Source: an uncultured bacterium
GTDB taxonomy: Bacteria; Vulcanimicrobiota; Vulcanimicrobiia; Vulcanimicrobiales; Vulcanimicrobiaceae
Direction of reading: 5' to 3'
DNA: 39,846 bases
Assembly: GCA_903829325.1 (NCBI GenBank)
Contig: CAIKPM010000059.1
Location: 1-39,846 of the forward strand
The notes beneath the pieces are model-generated. The model saw only the letters and a list, made by a program, of their open reading frames with translations. It was not told the origin of the DNA and did not search any database. Below are positions 10,464-23,854 of this stretch, piece by piece; the stretch's first letter is position 1; each line of letters starts with the position of its first letter. The translations under genes were made by a program, and so were the position numbers.

Positions 10464-11672
10464 ATGCTCATTTTTTCACGCGCTGAAGCCTGTAGTCTGA
10501 TTGCCGCTGCTTGCGCCCTGCCATTTGGTGGGTCGCCGCGGGTAACACTTGGCAACGAACGTTTTGTCAGCGATGCCTGGAACGATTTTCGCGGCAAACG
10601 CCTCGGACTCGTGACGAATCACACCGGCATCCTGCCAAGTGGCGAGTCGTTGATCGATGCGCTCCAACGTAACCCTGCTCTGCAACTGCGCGCGCTCTTC
10701 GCTCCGGAGCATGGCTTACGAGGCACCCACGGGGCTGGGAATGCCGTCGCCAATGAACACGATGCGAAAAGCGGACTACCCGTCTATAGCCTGTACGGGA
10801 AAACACGCCGGCCAACCGCCGCAATGCTCGCAGATATCGACGTGCTCCTCTTCGATATCCAAGACGTCGGGGCACGCACCTATACCTACATCTCCACCCT
10901 TGCGATGGTCATGCAAGCCGCTGGTGCGCTCAGGAAAACCGTTGTCGTCCTCGATCGCCCCAACCCCATCGGCGGCCACCTGGTCGAAGGCCCCGTGCTG
11001 GACCCAGCTTGCTCGTCATTCATTGGTCTGTATCCGCTAGCATTACGGCACGGCATGACCATCGGCGAAATCGCCGAGTTCTATCGTCAATCGTTCGGCA
11101 TCGCCTGCGATCTGCAAGTTATTCCAATGCAGAAATACTACCGCTGGATGCTCTGGCCCGATACACGCCTAACGTGGGTGCCAACGTCGCCCCACATCCC
11201 CCACTTTGGCACGGCCTTGGTCTACCTGAGCACCGGCCCCTTGGGTGGAGCGGGCATCAACAATGGGATTGGTTCTCGTACACCGTTTGAACTCGCGGTC
11301 GCACCGCATCTCGAGAGTAGCGAACTCGCCTCATACCTCAACGCCCGGAAGCTTCCAGGCGTCATCTTCAAACCGAGCATCTGGACGCCCACGAGCGGAT
11401 TTTATCAAGACCAGCCCCTGAGCGGCGTACAGCTTATCGTCACCGATCCCGCGCGGTTTGGCGCCGTGCGAGCTGGGCTCGAAATTCTTTGCGCGATTCG
11501 CCAACTCTCACCACAGACGCTGCGTTATGCTGCGAGCCTCGATCGCGACTGGGGCACGAGCTCGCTACGCACCATGCTCGCAGCGGGCGACCGCCCCGAA
11601 CAAATCCTCGCGGCCTGGAATCCGAGGCTCGCCCGCTTCCTCGAACAACGCGCGAATGTACTGATGTATTAG
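10464..11672 (+). CDS. namZ: Exo-beta-N-acetylmuramidase NamZ family (DUF1343)
   Basis: The family includes the exo-acting beta-N-acetylmuramidase NamZ, which releases MurNAc from peptidoglycan fragments. It has 402 residues. A short hydrophobic N-terminus (LIAAACALPFGG) may be a signal peptide. Family blocks in order are KRLGLVTNHTG, FAPEHGLRG, YSLYGKTRRPT, DIQDVGARTYTYISTL, LDRPNPIGG, VEGPVLD, FIGLYPLALRHGMTIGE and TSPHIPHF. The glutamate in EHGLRG is the likely active-site region. The ribosome site before ATG 10464 is weak. Its end overlaps the convergent unknown gene by four bases. A muramic-acid recycling partner (murQ, nagZ) is not visible, so the link to cell-wall recycling rests on the family alone. 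Confidence 0.85.
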   Translation: MLIFSRAEACSLIAAACALPFGGSPRVTLGNERFVSDAWNDFRGKRLGLVTNHTGILPSGESLIDALQRNPALQLRALFAPEHGLRGTHGAGNAVANEHDAKSGLPVYSLYGKTRRPTAAMLADIDVLLFDIQDVGARTYTYISTLAMVMQAAGALRKTVVVLDRPNPIGGHLVEGPVLDPACSSFIGLYPLALRHGMTIGEIAEFYRQSFGIACDLQVIPMQKYYRWMLWPDTRLTWVPTSPHIPHFGTALVYLSTGPLGGAGINNGIGSRTPFELAVAPHLESSELASYLNARKLPGVIFKPSIWTPTSGFYQDQPLSGVQLIVTDPARFGAVRAGLEILCAIRQLSPQTLRYAASLDRDWGTSSLRTMLAAGDRPEQILAAWNPRLARFLEQRANVLMY

Positions 11673-12892
11673 AATGCGTTAACGAGTTGTTGCTGTTGCT
11701 GCTGCGCTTGCAGACGCTGCTGGCGTTGCTGGTTAGCCTGCGAGTGTTGAATCCATAACAAGGCAATGATTGACGTAAGCAGCGTTGTCACCGCAGCGAC
11801 CCCCGGGTTGAACCAAAAAGTCCGCGTGCCTTTTGAACCAACTTCGTCCGCGTTGCGAGCAGTTCGGAGCATACCGCGACGAATAATTCCCATACGCGAC
11901 TTCATAGCTCTCAAACTGCGTACGCGTGGGCGTGGATCAATCTCACCACGATAGCCGCGCATAAACCGCAGAACCCGAGTAAACGTTACGTCGTGCTGAG
12001 GATCGTTGATGCGCCCAGGCTCGCGAATGACATCCTTCAGGCGAGCAATATTCCCCTCAGTAAACGAATGCCGTCGTAGATACGCCAGCTTTTGCGCAGC
12101 AGTGCCATCGCGGAAAATGGCATGCATTCTCGCAATTTTGCGACCAAGCACGATATGCCGGTCGCGCACATCCGCCCCGCGACTAATACGGAATATTTGC
12201 GGCACGCGTTCACCCGCGAGCGACGTCTTACTGACGAGTATATCTTCTTTTTTGCCGGCAAATACCACGAAGCGATCGCCAAAGCCAGCACCGGGTAGGC
12301 GATGCGGCACAACAGTCGCACCTGGAAATACCGGATCACCCTCAACATCTTGAGGTAAATCGCCAACATGCGCGGCTGAACTATCAGAAGCGATGTATCG
12401 CTTAACCGCCGCAACGTCGGCCGCGCTCGAAGTTGTAGGAAGCTTGTCCAGCCGAGTTTCATTCTCTAAGTCGAGCCTGGCTTTGGTGAACAGATCTTTG
12501 AATAATCGTTTCTGAGCAAACTCGTACTCATTCGTACCAAAACGCTCTTCGGGGGGTTGCCCCCACTCGGGTTTTGCATCGATGAGGAGTGAGGAAATCA
12601 GGAAAGTCAGGATCCCGACTGCGATACTTCCGCCTACGATCAGCAACATTTTGGTCGTATTGATTTGCGGCGACGCAGACGACGCAACCAGCGTACTCGG
12701 GTCTTCGGTTGGGCTCTCGGTCGCCGGCGGCGGAATTAAAAACGCCGCACTAGGGTTCCCGAATGTCAAACCCGTTGAAGGCGGCGAAAAACTTGGTTGT
12801 GGACTGACGACGCTAGGGAAGGGAATCGCTGAATTTGGTGACGGTGCTTGATACCAGGTGCCTGACGGATTCGTTGCGGTTACAGCACTCAC
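11669..12892 (-). CDS. Unknown two-membrane-segment protein, paralogue A
   Basis: Not recognised. It has 407 residues. Residues 1-80 are rich in Pro, Ser and Thr, with no signal sequence. A membrane segment follows near 82-104 (KMLLIVGGSIAVGILTFLIS...), then a hydrophilic middle of about 255 residues with many Arg/Lys near 320-355. A second membrane segment lies near 362-381, and the tail is Gln-rich (about 15 Gln in the last 24 residues). The two helices would put both ends on the same side of the membrane. It shares layout and anchor motifs with the protein at 13967-15166: GTNEYEFAQ (119-127), GDPVFPG (185-191), RRHSF (273-277) and RFMRG (309-313). The start is GTG 12892, the only start in this part of the frame, with no clear ribosome site. 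I assign no function. Confidence 0.75.
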   Translation of the reverse strand: MSAVTATNPSGTWYQAPSPNSAIPFPSVVSPQPSFSPPSTGLTFGNPSAAFLIPPPATESPTEDPSTLVASSASPQINTTKMLLIVGGSIAVGILTFLISSLLIDAKPEWGQPPEERFGTNEYEFAQKRLFKDLFTKARLDLENETRLDKLPTTSSAADVAAVKRYIASDSSAAHVGDLPQDVEGDPVFPGATVVPHRLPGAGFGDRFVVFAGKKEDILVSKTSLAGERVPQIFRISRGADVRDRHIVLGRKIARMHAIFRDGTAAQKLAYLRRHSFTEGNIARLKDVIREPGRINDPQHDVTFTRVLRFMRGYRGEIDPRPRVRSLRAMKSRMGIIRRGMLRTARNADEVGSKGTRTFWFNPGVAAVTTLLTSIIALLWIQHSQANQQRQQRLQAQQQQQQLVNAF

Positions 12893-13249
12893 GAAATACA
12901 GCCATTGCTTTCGCAGGATGGATAAAACGCCGGAAGCCTCGAGAGGACAACCCTTGTTGCATCGTTTGTGTTGTAGGGGCTAGAGGTTAAGAACCGCATT
13001 CGCCTCTTTATCCACCGTTAAGATACCACCCAAGCGGATGAGCGCCCTATATATGTCCAGACAACGACGAATGGAAAGGCCATATTCCAAAAAAAATATT
13101 GCCACACCGCCTGCAGCAAGCGAGCCAGGAAAAGGGAGATTGGCGGCAGCGATTCGTATACTCCAGCCACCTCTGGGCGCTATGTCGACCCAGTTTTTTC
13201 GGTGTGCTTTTCCTGAAAAAACACTCCCCTCACACAACTCAAGAGGAAC
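12893..13249. other. 357-base intergenic region, AT-rich in parts
   Basis: This gap separates the unknown gene A (leaving to the left) from the small plus-strand gene at 13253, so it should hold promoters for both. It contains an A-rich tract (CCAAAAAAAATATT near 13089-13102) and the inverted repeat at 13193-13222. I see no convincing -35/-10 pair. A minus-strand frame at 12980-13237 with a TTG start contains a hydrophobic stretch but has no supporting ribosome site, so I leave it uncalled. Confidence 0.5.
13193..13222. repeat. 8-bp perfect inverted repeat, T6/A6 arms
   Basis: GTTTTTTC (13193-13200) and GAAAAAAC (13215-13222) form a perfect inverted repeat with a 14-base spacer. It ends 30 bases before the start of the small gene at 13253. 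The position suits an operator or the leader of that gene. A weak terminator for a transcript from the left is also possible. No protein is implicated by the sequence. Confidence 0.4.
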
Positions 13250-13252
13250 ATG

Positions 13253-13417
13253 ATGATGTCAAACGCCGTTGGACCAAACAACTCGAATCAACAAAATGGT
13301 CCGGTCCATGAAGGCTTGTTTGGCAACCGCAGACCGCAACGGCCTAGCGCGCCAAGCGCAAACCAAGCAAATACGCCGCCAACTCCGCCCAATAGTTCCA
13401 TCAACATCATCGCTTAG
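13253..13417 (+). CDS. Small Asn/Pro/Gln-rich peptide gene, 54 residues
   Basis: An unrecognised small gene. AGAGGA at 13242-13247 precedes three consecutive ATG codons (13250, 13253, 13256); spacing favours the second, giving 54 residues. The product begins MMSNAVGPNNSNQQ, continues through RRPQRPSAPSANQAN and TPPTPPNSS, and ends SINIIA. It is almost free of hydrophobic residues until the last few, so it should be disordered, with a short nonpolar tail. It lacks a signal peptide. Its composition resembles the Pro/Ser/Asn-rich N-termini of the two flanking unknown membrane proteins. The last 11 bases overlap the convergent ComEA-like gene. The good ribosome site is the main support. Confidence 0.55.
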   Translation: MMSNAVGPNNSNQQNGPVHEGLFGNRRPQRPSAPSANQANTPPTPPNSSINIIA

Positions 13418-13910
13418 GGGCGGGATTATTGAGAGTCACGTAGGCAAGCAACGCGCGGAATCGCGCGTCGTTGATCCCCTCTACGTCACGCAAGTCATCG
13501 AGCCCATCGAAGCCGCCATCAACCTCGCGTAAGGCGACGATCCGCTCAGCGAGCGTAGCATCGAGCCCTGGCAGCTGAGCCAACTCTGCGACCGTCGCAC
13601 TGTTGAGATCGACCTTCACCGTGCTCCCGCCAGGGCTCGTAGCTGGCGACGAATGGCGCTGATGCCGTCGCGTATGTCGATGATGCCCCAAGCGATACCC
13701 GCGCCGGTGTGCTTCGGGCAAACACTGCAGCGACGCAGCAGGCGACGTAGCTTCGGTCGCGGGCGACCCGGAAGCCGACACGAGCGGCATTGGCGTTTCA
13801 AACGTGGCCGACGAAATCTGCAGCACGGGCGGGCGCGATTGGCTCAACGCGGCCTCCCACCCCACGCCAGCGCAGGCAAGACCCGCGATCAACATCACTA
13901 GCGGTTTCAT
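13407..13910 (-). CDS. ComEA-like helix-hairpin-helix DNA-binding protein
   Basis: A 167-residue exported protein with a C-terminal ComEA-type helix-hairpin-helix domain. The domain covers about residues 98-160 (KVDLNSATVAELAQLPGLD, AERIVALRE, GFDGLDDLRDVEGI). ComEA proteins bind incoming double-stranded DNA outside the cytoplasmic membrane during natural transformation. The N-terminus is a signal or anchor (MKPLVMLIAGLACAGVG). Between lies a Pro/Ser/Thr segment and a striking His/Arg-rich patch near 69-86 (RRGYRLGHHRHTRRHQRH), which could bind nucleic acid or metal. No comEC or type IV pilus gene is adjacent, so a competence role is inferred from the domain only. Confidence 0.82.
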   Translation of the reverse strand: MKPLVMLIAGLACAGVGWEAALSQSRPPVLQISSATFETPMPLVSASGSPATEATSPAASLQCLPEAHRRGYRLGHHRHTRRHQRHSSPATSPGGSTVKVDLNSATVAELAQLPGLDATLAERIVALREVDGGFDGLDDLRDVEGINDARFRALLAYVTLNNPAPKR

Positions 13911-13966
13911 GCCAACGACTTCACGCCAGCCGCAGCCAGCGACTAGAAGGTACCTAGAGCGAGAGT

Positions 13967-15166
13967 CTAGTTCTGATCTGAGCCATTGTGGGGCAGCAAT
14001 TTGTCATTCTTATGGAGCGAGTAAAGCCCGAGACTCGCGACCAGCGCATAGATCATGACATTGATCACGACGCTCGACATAATGATGCGCCCGGCGGTGT
14101 CGCCAATGTTGAACGGATTGCGCATCGCCGCATTCCAGCCAGTCCCAAAATCACGCAGACGACGCCCCGCATGCCCAACCCCACGCATGAAGCGACCACG
14201 ATCAGCATACGCGGTGTTATCTGAAGCGCTCAAAGCTTGATCGAACGGAAGCGGCTCGGCAAACGAAAAGCGACCGCCCTCCTTGCGAATCCACGTCCTC
14301 TTATACGCAGACTTCAGCGTGTCGGGCTTCTCAATTCCGTAGTAACGGAAATGCTCAGCGCTCACGACACTTGGGTCATACGAGTGAGCGCGCGCCCAAA
14401 AATGAGTCCGTGCTTCACCACCGTTTGCATGCTCGAGATGAAACGCGGAAACCAACGTATCTTCAAGCTGCGCCCCTACCGGAGGATGCTGAAGCTTGTT
14501 TTCATCAAAGCCCCTAGGGGTTGTAAAAATTATCTTTCCTGATTTGCCGTCATAGCAAACCTGCGCACCGTTGTCGGCGCGACTAACCACTTGCTTGTGC
14601 GAAACAAGGGTAGGTGATAGGTACACTGCGCGGACACCCGAGCCAGGACGCACAGGGTCGCCAAAAACGCCATGCAACACCGTACCAGTTGCTGCAGGCA
14701 AGCCCGCAGCAGACGGAAGTGGCGCAACCGCAGCTTTGCGAACGAGTTTTTCGTACTCGTCGCTAATTTTTTGAGTTTGGGCCTTGTGCCACTCGGGCGT
14801 GCCGTGCACCAAATCTGCCGACCGGCCACCGTGCTTGCCCCAAGCTGGAGCGAAATACAACAACGCAGCGAGCGAGAGGAAACTCAAGTCGATAATCAGG
14901 GTTGCGATCGCAACAACTTCGCCCGGATTGCGTGGTTTTTTATGACCAGTGCTCGGCCCGGTGGCGGCTTGCCACATCAGCCAAGGGGGCGAGGACTCAT
15001 TCGCAGGCTGAACATACACGACTTGGGTGGACGGGAGCTGCGCACCGACTGGTGGGGCAATGGCAATATTTGCTGGCGAAGCAAACACGCCCGGCGGTTG
15101 AGCGAAGTAGCCAACGAAAGATTGACTGTTGGGTCCTTGCCAGGAACCATTTACGGAAGAATTCAT
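13967..15166 (-). CDS. Unknown two-membrane-segment protein, paralogue B
   Basis: Not recognised. It has 399 residues. The N-terminus is rich in Pro, Ser, Asn and Gln (1-80). A membrane segment lies near 83-106 (VVAIATLIIDLSFLSLAALLY), and a hydrophilic middle of about 250 residues follows. A second membrane segment near 360-382 (IIMSSVVINVMIYALVASLG) leads to a short polar tail. The order matches the protein at 11669-12892, and anchor motifs recur: GTPEWHKAQ (122-130), GDPVRPG (169-175), ARAHSY (258-263) and RFMRG (325-329). The tail is not Gln-rich. The start is ATG 15166; no good ribosome site is visible. It lies 56 bases upstream of the ComEA-like gene on the same strand, so the two may be co-transcribed. 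Function unknown. Confidence 0.75.
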   Translation of the reverse strand: MNSSVNGSWQGPNSQSFVGYFAQPPGVFASPANIAIAPPVGAQLPSTQVVYVQPANESSPPWLMWQAATGPSTGHKKPRNPGEVVAIATLIIDLSFLSLAALLYFAPAWGKHGGRSADLVHGTPEWHKAQTQKISDEYEKLVRKAAVAPLPSAAGLPAATGTVLHGVFGDPVRPGSGVRAVYLSPTLVSHKQVVSRADNGAQVCYDGKSGKIIFTTPRGFDENKLQHPPVGAQLEDTLVSAFHLEHANGGEARTHFWARAHSYDPSVVSAEHFRYYGIEKPDTLKSAYKRTWIRKEGGRFSFAEPLPFDQALSASDNTAYADRGRFMRGVGHAGRRLRDFGTGWNAAMRNPFNIGDTAGRIIMSSVVINVMIYALVASLGLYSLHKNDKLLPHNGSDQN

Positions 15167-15331
15167 CTACTCAACGCCTCAGGCCCTCGCCCAATTCACG
15201 CACACTCGGTTGGCTCGAGTCCAACTTGCAGCACATGGCAGGTTTGAAGACACCCACACTGGCCATTCGACTTATATCGGAACCCTCCCTCGTTTCGAGG
15301 AGCCATCGACCTATCGCCGTACCACCCCAGT

Positions 15332-17791
15332 ATGGCAGACCAACAACACCCCGCATCGACTAACGCGTATGATTTCCGCGCGATTGAACAGCGCTGGCAA
15401 ACCGCGTGGGAAGACAGTCGTCTGTATCAGGTAAGCGACGATGCGCCCGGCGAGCACTGTTATATCTTAGAGATGCTGCCGTACCCCTCAGGCGATCTGC
15501 ATGTCGGTCACGCCAAAAATTACACCCTCGGCGACACGATCGCGCGCATGTTCCGCATGCTCGGCCAGACCGTTGTTCATCCGATGGGCTGGGATGCTTT
15601 CGGCTTACCGGCAGAAAACGCCGCGATCAAACGTGGCATCGATCCCGAGAAGTGGACCCGCCAAAATATTCGCAACATGCAACGCCAAGTTCGCCTCATG
15701 GGCACGAGTTACGATTGGTCCCGCGAATTTGCGACCTGCGACCCAACGTATTACCGCTGGAACCAGTGGCTCTTTTTGCGGATGTACGAAGCCGGTCTCG
15801 CGTACAAGCGTGAAGCCCCGGTAAATTGGTGTCCGGTTGATCAAACCGTATTGGCGAACGAACAAGTTGAAGACGGCAAATGCTGGCGCTGTGGTGCAAG
15901 CGTTGAACGGCGCAATCTCTCGCAGTGGTTTTTCCGCATTACCGCCTACGCCGAGCGCCTCTTAGCCGATCTCGATACCCTCGAAGGCTGGCCAGAACGC
16001 ATCAAAGCCATGCAGCGCAATTGGATCGGACGCAGCGAAGGAACAACATTCACCTTCGCCGTTGCCGATCTGCCCAAAGCCAGCATCGACGTATACACCA
16101 CCCGGATCGATACCGTGTTTGGAGTCAGCTACATTGCGCTAGCAGCCGAGCACCCGCTGCTGCCCGAGCTCATCGCACAACATCCCCAGCACCGCACGGC
16201 GGTCGACGCGCTGCGCGAGAGTTTGCGCAGTAAATCCGAGCTCGAGCGCACGAGCCTTATGGCAAAAATCGGTGTCTTCACCGGCGCGTATGCCATCCAT
16301 CCGCTCTCGGGTGAACGCGTGCCGATCTGGGTCACCAATTATGTCTTAGCAGATTATGGCACCGGCGCGGTCATGGGTGTGCCCGCCCACGACGAGCGCG
16401 ATTTGTCGTTCGCTCAAGCCTATCAATTGCCGATTCGCACGGTGATCGACGAGCACGACACGCTCATCGATTCAGCTCAATTCTCGGGCCTGAACACAAC
16501 CGTAGCTCGCAGCGCTATTACCGCCGAATTGATCAAACGCCAAGTTGGTAGCGCCACGGTCAATTATCGCTTCCGCGATTGGCTGATTTCGCGCCAACGC
16601 TATTGGGGCACGCCCATCCCGATTGTGTATTGCCCCCGCGATGGCGAAGTCGCCGTGCCCGATAGCCAGCTACCAGTAGTCCTGCCCTTGGGCATTCCGA
16701 TCACGGGGGAAGGCTCGCCCTTAGCTCGCGATACGGCATTCCGTGCCACAACCTGCCCGAAGTGCGGTGGCCCCGCCGAACGCGAAACAGATACGATGGA
16801 CACCTTCGTTGATTCATCGTGGTATTATTTGCGCTACCTTGATCCGCACAACGCAAGCGCGCCATTCACAGCGAGCAAAGCAGACGCTTGGATGCCCGTC
16901 GACCAGTACATCGGTGGCGCCGAGCACGCGGTCATGCATCTATTATACGCCCGCTTCTTCTTTAAAGTGCTCCACGATCAAGGTTTGGTCGATGCGAGCG
17001 AACCATTTACCCGGCTCTTCAATCAAGGCATGGTCCTCGCAAATGGCGAGAAAATGAGCAAGAGCCGGGGCAACGTCGTTGGCATCGATGAAACCGTCGA
17101 GCGTCATGGCGTCGATGCAATGCGCTTGTATCTGCTCAAGGCTGCGCCACCTGAAGATACGATGAATTGGACCGAAGACGGCATCATCGGCAGGGTCCGT
17201 TTTCTCAATCGCCTCTGGCGCGCGTGTGAACCGTTTTTCGCCCACGCCGCGACAGTCCGTCGTGACGAGTTACCACCCATCAATGGCGAGCCCCAACGTG
17301 CTCTGGTCCGAGCGGTGCACGAGGCACTGCGTTCCGCCGCCGAAGAAACGACGACTCGGCGTTTTCACTACAACGTGACCACCGCGAAGCTCGACGAGCT
17401 ACTCAACGCACTCAACCAAGCCACCCGCGCCGTGGACGATGCGCATGATCCAGCCGTGCTCTATGCAGTGCACATCACTCCGCTGCTGCTAGCCCCCTTC
17501 GCTCCCCATCTCGCCGAAGAGCTATGGGAACGCTTAGGTTATCGCACCTCGGTGCATCTCGAGAAGTGGATTTCCTACGATCCTCACGCCCTCGCTCAAA
17601 GCGAAGTGACGCTTGTCGTCCAAATCAACGGCAAAATCCGTGCTCGGCTTCAAGTGGCACCTGGCCTGACCCAAACCCAGGCATACGACCAAGCGGTCGC
17701 TGATCCGAACGTGCAAAATAACCTCGCCGACAAAACGATCCGCAAAGTGATCTACGTTGAGAATAAATTGTTGAATCTCGTGGTGGGCTAG
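15332..17791 (+). CDS. leuS: Leucyl-tRNA synthetase
   Basis: Class I aminoacyl-tRNA synthetase that charges tRNA-Leu. It has 819 residues, slightly short but complete. The HIGH-type signature is HVGH at residues 57-60 (PYPSGDLHVGH). The zinc-like knuckle near 190 is CWRCGASVERRNL. The CP1 editing domain contains a Thr/Asp-rich block (TTRIDTVFGVSYIALA) and YGTGAVMGVPAHDERD. KMSKS is at 574-578 (ANGEKMSKSRGNVVG). The C-terminal anticodon-binding and leucine-specific domains follow. ATG 15332 gives the expected DFRAIEQRWQ beginning; the ribosome site is weak. In the 165 bases upstream I find no T-box leader sequence. The last four bases overlap the convergent cation transporter gene. Confidence 0.97.
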   Translation: MADQQHPASTNAYDFRAIEQRWQTAWEDSRLYQVSDDAPGEHCYILEMLPYPSGDLHVGHAKNYTLGDTIARMFRMLGQTVVHPMGWDAFGLPAENAAIKRGIDPEKWTRQNIRNMQRQVRLMGTSYDWSREFATCDPTYYRWNQWLFLRMYEAGLAYKREAPVNWCPVDQTVLANEQVEDGKCWRCGASVERRNLSQWFFRITAYAERLLADLDTLEGWPERIKAMQRNWIGRSEGTTFTFAVADLPKASIDVYTTRIDTVFGVSYIALAAEHPLLPELIAQHPQHRTAVDALRESLRSKSELERTSLMAKIGVFTGAYAIHPLSGERVPIWVTNYVLADYGTGAVMGVPAHDERDLSFAQAYQLPIRTVIDEHDTLIDSAQFSGLNTTVARSAITAELIKRQVGSATVNYRFRDWLISRQRYWGTPIPIVYCPRDGEVAVPDSQLPVVLPLGIPITGEGSPLARDTAFRATTCPKCGGPAERETDTMDTFVDSSWYYLRYLDPHNASAPFTASKADAWMPVDQYIGGAEHAVMHLLYARFFFKVLHDQGLVDASEPFTRLFNQGMVLANGEKMSKSRGNVVGIDETVERHGVDAMRLYLLKAAPPEDTMNWTEDGIIGRVRFLNRLWRACEPFFAHAATVRRDELPPINGEPQRALVRAVHEALRSAAEETTTRRFHYNVTTAKLDELLNALNQATRAVDDAHDPAVLYAVHITPLLLAPFAPHLAEELWERLGYRTSVHLEKWISYDPHALAQSEVTLVVQINGKIRARLQVAPGLTQTQAYDQAVADPNVQNNLADKTIRKVIYVENKLLNLVVG

Positions 17792-23038: not shown

Positions 23039-23854
23039 TCAAATATCGTGCGTATAGCGCTCAAGCATAGCACTGGATATTTCGTGAGACGATGGCCATA
23101 CACCACCAACAGCACCTTCACACCGCTGGTAGTGTTCGAGCACGGCGAGATCAGGTTGAACAGCTTTTCCCTCATGAAGAAAGACCACGCCAATTGCTTC
23201 ACTCGGGACCGCACTGATGAATTTCTCTGCAGAATCAAGCATCGTATAAATACGGCGGTGAAGATCTGGAATATCGATCGGGCGCTCAGTCGCTAATGAG
23301 CGAAATTCATCCACAGTAAAACGACTATGCCTGGTAATATCAGCCAACATCTCTTCAGGCGATTGTCCCGGAAAGCGTCCTACAGCCGCACAAATCACCG
23401 CGCCAAGAGGAAGAATCGTCTCGTGGATAGTCACAAGATCAACGATATCTCGTGCTTCTCTCCGGTCGGCGGCTGCAGAAGTTTTATTGGTGGCAAGATC
23501 TACTGGATGAAGCACATACCCAAAAAGCGAGTGCCGCTGTGTTGGAAAAAATCGAAACGCACTATCATGTACCCATTCAAGGCGCATGGAATCGCCAAGC
23601 CCCCCGACCTCAGCCTCACGTTTTGCTGTCTGAATTTTTCGCCATATAAAGTTAAGCCCAGCGGTGGTCAAAGTGTGAGCGTCAGCTTGAGCCGCACTAT
23701 CAAGTGCAGCTTCAGAGTCCTGAAAGATGTCGATATCGCCTGAGAAGCGCGGCCCTTCCTGATTAACCGCAACACCCCCCGCGACATAGCTTTCAGGACT
23801 CCGACCAGCGGCGAGCAAGCTGAGAACGTGAGTTTGCAGTTCAGTGAGAGGCAC
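23039..23854 (-). CDS. AbiEii-like nucleotidyltransferase
   Basis: A 271-residue protein of the nucleotidyltransferase AbiEii/AbiGii toxin superfamily. The nucleotidyltransferase motif is AGGVAVNQEG then FSGDIDIF, giving Gly-Gly 26-27 and the metal-binding aspartates 40 and 42. The family's second block is VLHPVDLATNKTSAAADRREARDIVDLV, with Lys124, Arg131, Asp136 and Asp139. Such enzymes transfer nucleotides to tRNA or protein and act in phage defence or as toxins in two-gene modules. A short gene overlaps its start by 14 bases, the arrangement of a paired module. The partner is not the usual AbiEi winged-helix antitoxin, so the defence role is inferred. Confidence 0.78.
   Translation of the reverse strand: MPLTELQTHVLSLLAAGRSPESYVAGGVAVNQEGPRFSGDIDIFQDSEAALDSAAQADAHTLTTAGLNFIWRKIQTAKREAEVGGLGDSMRLEWVHDSAFRFFPTQRHSLFGYVLHPVDLATNKTSAAADRREARDIVDLVTIHETILPLGAVICAAVGRFPGQSPEEMLADITRHSRFTVDEFRSLATERPIDIPDLHRRIYTMLDSAEKFISAVPSEAIGVVFLHEGKAVQPDLAVLEHYQRCEGAVGGVWPSSHEISSAMLERYTHDI

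Follow-up and report, generated by a model that had tools for sequence, protein, structure and literature searches.

A comEA-like gene that has kept its inherited place near leuS is flanked by two orphan genes, A407 and B399, and we consider it somewhat probable that these encode lineage-restricted inner-membrane proteins, likely diverged paralogues, that probably function independently of DNA uptake. The locus lies in a window of 39,846 bases, which is one contig of a 1.89-Mb genome, and the three genes share the minus strand (Table 1). B399 is separated by 165 bp from the divergent leuS and ends 56 bp before comEA. A407 lies downstream of comEA after a gap of 514 bp, and its stop overlaps that of namZ by 4 bp. 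Scans for promoters and terminators found no excess of candidates over shuffled sequences.

Table 1. Features of the comEA locus, with positions in the window.
Feature	Position	Strand	Description
namZ (exo-beta-N-acetylmuramidase)	10464..11672	+	convergent with A407; away from comEA in relatives
A407	11669..12892	-	orphan, 407 aa; Pro/Ser-rich N-terminus 1-80, helix 1 ~82-103, polar loop, helix 2 ~363-381, Gln-rich tail
RFMRG of A407	11954..11968	-	residues 309-313; out of register with the B399 copy
Common block of A407	12320..12571	-	residues 108-191, helix 1 to GDPVFPG
Asn/Pro-rich ORF	13250..13417	+	53-55 codons; AGAGGA at 13242-13247; doubtful coding status
comEA	13407..13910	-	stand-alone helix-hairpin-helix protein, hydrophobic N-terminus; PF12836 7.1e-17
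B399	13967..15166	-	orphan, 399 aa, plan as in A407; helices ~84-104 and ~361-380
RFMRG of B399	14180..14194	-	residues 325-329
Common block of B399	14642..14848	-	residues 107-175, helix 1 to GDPVRPG
leuS-B399 divergent interval	15167..15331	.	size inside the range of the relatives' leuS-comEA interval
leuS	15332..17791	+	conserved comEA neighbour in relatives; divergent from B399

A407 and B399 are real genes. Both open frames are present at the lengths given in the original prediction, and the codon statistics of each score best in its own frame. Frames of 400 codons would be most unlikely to stay open by chance at such base composition. Their GC3 (0.53 and 0.57) and codon adaptation are somewhat below those of most neighbours. 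The common plan proposed for the two proteins was borne out: each has an N-terminal tail of 80 residues rich in Pro, Ser and Ala, a single strong hydrophobic segment near residue 82-84, a polar loop of about 255 residues and another hydrophobic segment near residue 361-363. A membrane location is likely for both. The charge flanks give no clear topology, since in A407 those of helix 1 suggest that the loop is outside, in conflict with the basic stretch that precedes helix 2; we lean towards cytoplasmic ends and a periplasmic loop.

Four short motifs had been proposed to recur in the same order. All are present in both proteins and three are colinear: GTxExxxAQ (residue 119 in A407, GTNEYEFAQ; residue 122 in B399, GTPEWHKAQ) and GDPVxPG (residue 185, GDPVFPG; residue 169, GDPVRPG) are aligned, and HS[FY] occupies similar positions (residues 275 and 261). 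The fourth, RFMRG, is not in register. The distance from HS to the start of RFMRG is 34 residues in A407 versus 64 in B399, and MAFFT aligns each copy with other residues of the partner protein rather than with its counterpart.

Comparison of the two proteins gave a BLASTP E value of 0.024. Their Smith-Waterman score was reached by 0-3 of 1000 block shuffles over the full length and by 5-9 of 1000 over the middle region, the ranges covering the choice of matrix and gap costs; these figures, like the E value, are unselected. The similarity is confined to the stretch between helix 1 and GDPVxPG, where identical residues occur in like order and the global score is 46, compared with a shuffle mean of 11.9; none of 5000 shuffles equalled it, a P value that is optimistic in that the limits of the block were set after the alignment had been seen. 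Beyond GDPVxPG the score falls below the shuffle mean (P 0.94), the N-termini match by composition only (P 0.44-0.55 by shuffling), and the 5-mers common to the two proteins reach a P of only 0.027. When 290 background frames from related genomes were scored alongside, B399 found its best match in A407 (z 7.9); with A407 as query, B399 ranked second to a single background frame, a Pro-rich linker (L002). Similarity as members of one family is thus seen over the common block, where it is moderate and partly post hoc, and not over most of the length. The proposal that the two are diverged paralogues accordingly draws moderate support from one block, through BLASTP and shuffling, and none from the N-termini or from the region after GDPVxPG. 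On a case consisting of two sequences and moderate statistics, we regard A407 and B399 as likely to be paralogous. Judged from sequence, their resemblance is now limited to a juxtamembrane block, some 70-85 residues long, that follows helix 1 and ends in GDPVxPG.

AlphaFold2 models had mean pLDDT values of 31.8 for B399 and 41.6 for the middle of A407 (two-row alignment), too poor for a comparison of folds. At this low confidence, the A407 model places GTxExxxAQ in a helix and is also helical around residues 242-313, and the regions after GDPVxPG are modelled as helices in A407 versus strands in B399.

The statement that the pair belongs to no known family held in every library searched: neither protein matched a family in Pfam, NCBIfam, PHROGs, PADLOC or PDB, permissive thresholds included. 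Profiles built from the pair found no homologue in 99 genomes of the family, 117 of the class and 149 of the phylum. None was found in two species-genome scans, IMG/VR, phages or plasmids, the species-genome and IMG/VR scans being made with single proteins and hence sensitive to close relatives only. In the genome itself A407 and B399 were the only matches, even at an E value of 10 with the common block as query. The restriction may be to the genus or to the species, as the searched genomes include no second species of the genus. Several candidate matches were rejected. One (G040) was a Pro-rich linker within a different protein, another (G013) lay in a frame with two stops, and two (G006, G079) were short stretches whose per-genome E values, 0.016 and 0.03, came from a search of 99 genomes. 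A further match (G046; E 0.003 in one genome among 149) was attributed to chance, the frame belonging to an enoyl-ACP-reductase-like ORF. In their homologue-free searches, simple two-helix plan, low-complexity N-terminus and codon adaptation somewhat below that of their neighbours, A407 and B399 are like lineage-specific ORFan membrane proteins. They differ from the usual ones in being two copies that share a block and flank one conserved gene.

The gene between them carries an HHH_3 domain (PF12836, 61.7 bits versus a cut-off of 27), and the match, at 7e-17, confirmed that a ComEA-like protein separates the pair. The protein scores far below the cut-off of the full-length model TIGR01259 (47.7 versus 152.35 bits) and below that of the domain model TIGR00426 (38.8 versus 53.1); we call the gene ComEA-like because of its helix-hairpin-helix domain and its conserved neighbourhood. 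Its N-terminus, MKPLVMLIAGLACAGVGWEAALSQ, looks hydrophobic by eye. The first hairpin reads LPGLDATLA; most relatives have PG[IVL]G at this point (GIG, GVG, GLG), and two sister-family genomes have GID. The Gram-negative ComEA is a stand-alone DNA-binding domain (PMC9747964), and the Vibrio cholerae protein binds incoming DNA in the periplasm and promotes uptake (PMC3879209). The window gene resembles the Gram-negative type in its HHH_3 domain, its hydrophobic N-terminus and the leuS linkage of its relatives, and differs from it in the TIGR01259 score and in having GLD for GIG in the first hairpin. In several relatives (L107, L121, L122, L123 and others) ComEA is longer (about 226-270 aa) and has an additional region ahead of the helix-hairpin-helix domain; this region, absent from the window copy, looks SLBB-like by eye (VYVCGAV..PGVYTF).

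The surroundings of comEA were compared across related genomes. The gene was found in 57 of 60 genomes and the pair in one, so the expectation that pair and comEA travel together fails outside the genus. In all 49 relatives that have comEA and leuS on one contig the two genes are divergent, and in 47 of these they lie within 2 kb of each other, with a median of 462 bp between the matched parts of the two genes. The corresponding distance in the window is about 1.7 kb, longer because B399 sits between. The far side of comEA is occupied in relatives by genes for an acyl-CoA synthetase, PadR and S10-type peptidases, or by genes of rsfS/tsa type (all named by eye), and namZ in these genomes lies far away or on a different contig. 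The leuS linkage, the differing genes on the far side and the location of namZ elsewhere together indicate that comEA is the vertical copy and that in this lineage the pair was added around it or took the place of other genes there. These comparisons show comEA to be an ordinary vertical orthologue of the leuS-adjacent comEA of relatives. The divergent comEA-leuS arrangement is old in this group, and B399 sits inside an otherwise conserved interval. In four relatives (G019, G041, G051, G052) the interval holds other ORFs, none related to the pair, and therefore tolerates insertion, which it has accepted repeatedly. Interval ORFs at four loci, L120 (in G019), L121, L122 and L123, appeared lipoprotein-like or acetyltransferase-like.

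A 54-residue Asn/Pro peptide had been described as similar in composition to the N-termini of the pair. Its ORF is on the strand opposite to comEA and overlaps the end of that gene by 11 bp. The AGAGGA sequence, a good Shine-Dalgarno, precedes its third ATG by 8 nt. Its codon score was below that of every equal-sized in-frame window of the reference genes, and the frame was not the best of six; because its unusual composition lowers the codon score, we treat the ORF as doubtful, not excluded. With 19% Asn and 17% Pro, the peptide has only a loose likeness to the tail of B399 (Pro 16%, Ser 12%, Ala 11%) and differs from that of A407 (Pro 20%, Ser 19%, Thr 12%); it gives no coding signal in its codons. 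An 85-aa ORF at 12980-13237 was rejected on codon use. Elsewhere in the window, the gene at 23039-23854 weakly matches AbiEii nucleotidyltransferase (6.9e-6), has a low GC3 of 0.42 and is possibly toxin-antitoxin or defence-like; near the contig end, 38721-39479 encodes a lipoprotein-like orphan of 252 aa (CGGGGQNGGGG) whose N-terminal part is rich in Pro and Ala and which matched nothing in Pfam.

We considered the possibility that A407 and B399 are unrelated orphans that converged on one plan, their common motifs reflecting chance and composition. Such an origin would fit the disappearance of similarity outside one block, the N-termini that are alike in composition only, the RFMRG copies out of register, the modest 5-mer statistic and the helices versus strands of the low-confidence models. 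We nevertheless think it unlikely, given how rarely shuffles reached the full-length and middle scores, the identical block residues in the same order, and two genes that are near-adjacent and almost equal in length. If the pair were what is left of a mobile or viral element that had inserted around comEA, this would in turn account for its somewhat low GC3 and codon adaptation and for its absence from relatives. Yet the scanned genes of the window included no transposase or integrase, no notable flanking repeats were seen, and searches of PHROGs, IMG/VR, phages and plasmids matched neither protein; with comEA between the two genes being the vertical copy as well, we hold this origin to be very unlikely.

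The pair could also represent lineage-specific uptake accessories, membrane partners of ComEA that hand DNA to ComEC or to a pilus in this genus. Both genes flank comEA on one strand, with B399 close upstream, and the genome encodes ComEC (in a 757-aa ORF; PF03772, 4.8e-46) and has three T2SSE-family ATPase matches above the cut-off (PilB/PilT-type); the GLD of the first ComEA hairpin might accompany a changed partner. However, comEA stays next to leuS in relatives that lack the pair, the machinery occurs without A407 and B399, and unrelated ORFs occupy the same interval in other relatives, and the GID of two sister-family genomes shows that a changed hairpin is not unique to this protein. Uptake machinery thus exists here, with ComEC and the ATPases encoded elsewhere in the genome, and no need for the pair is visible. 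The uptake role raised in the original prediction is not supported, and we judge it quite unlikely. Its most elaborate form, a genus-specific module in which two paralogous two-pass proteins with a GDPVxPG juxtamembrane domain would pass DNA across the inner membrane together with ComEA, B399 and ComEA being made from one transcript, seems to us highly improbable.

Shared neighbourhood without shared function is the better fit, and the pair most likely consists of unremarkable lineage-specific genes. Of the lineage-specific envelope apparatus once proposed, the membrane location is likely and the lineage restriction was observed; the word apparatus goes further than these findings. As we picture it, the common block may form a helix that runs from the membrane to a loop domain, and this domain would be different in A407 and B399. 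Given the gap of 56 bp, B399 is probably co-transcribed with comEA. The two proteins would most likely act in the envelope apart from DNA uptake, and their place beside comEA would be an accident of insertion. ComEA itself would bind DNA in the periplasm in the ordinary way, working together with ComEC and type IV pili as it does in relatives. If A407 and B399 were uptake accessories after all, the ComEA step could gain lineage-specific membrane partners. The presence of two orphan genes at the old comEA-leuS neighbourhood limits the functional claims that can be drawn from gene neighbourhood alone.
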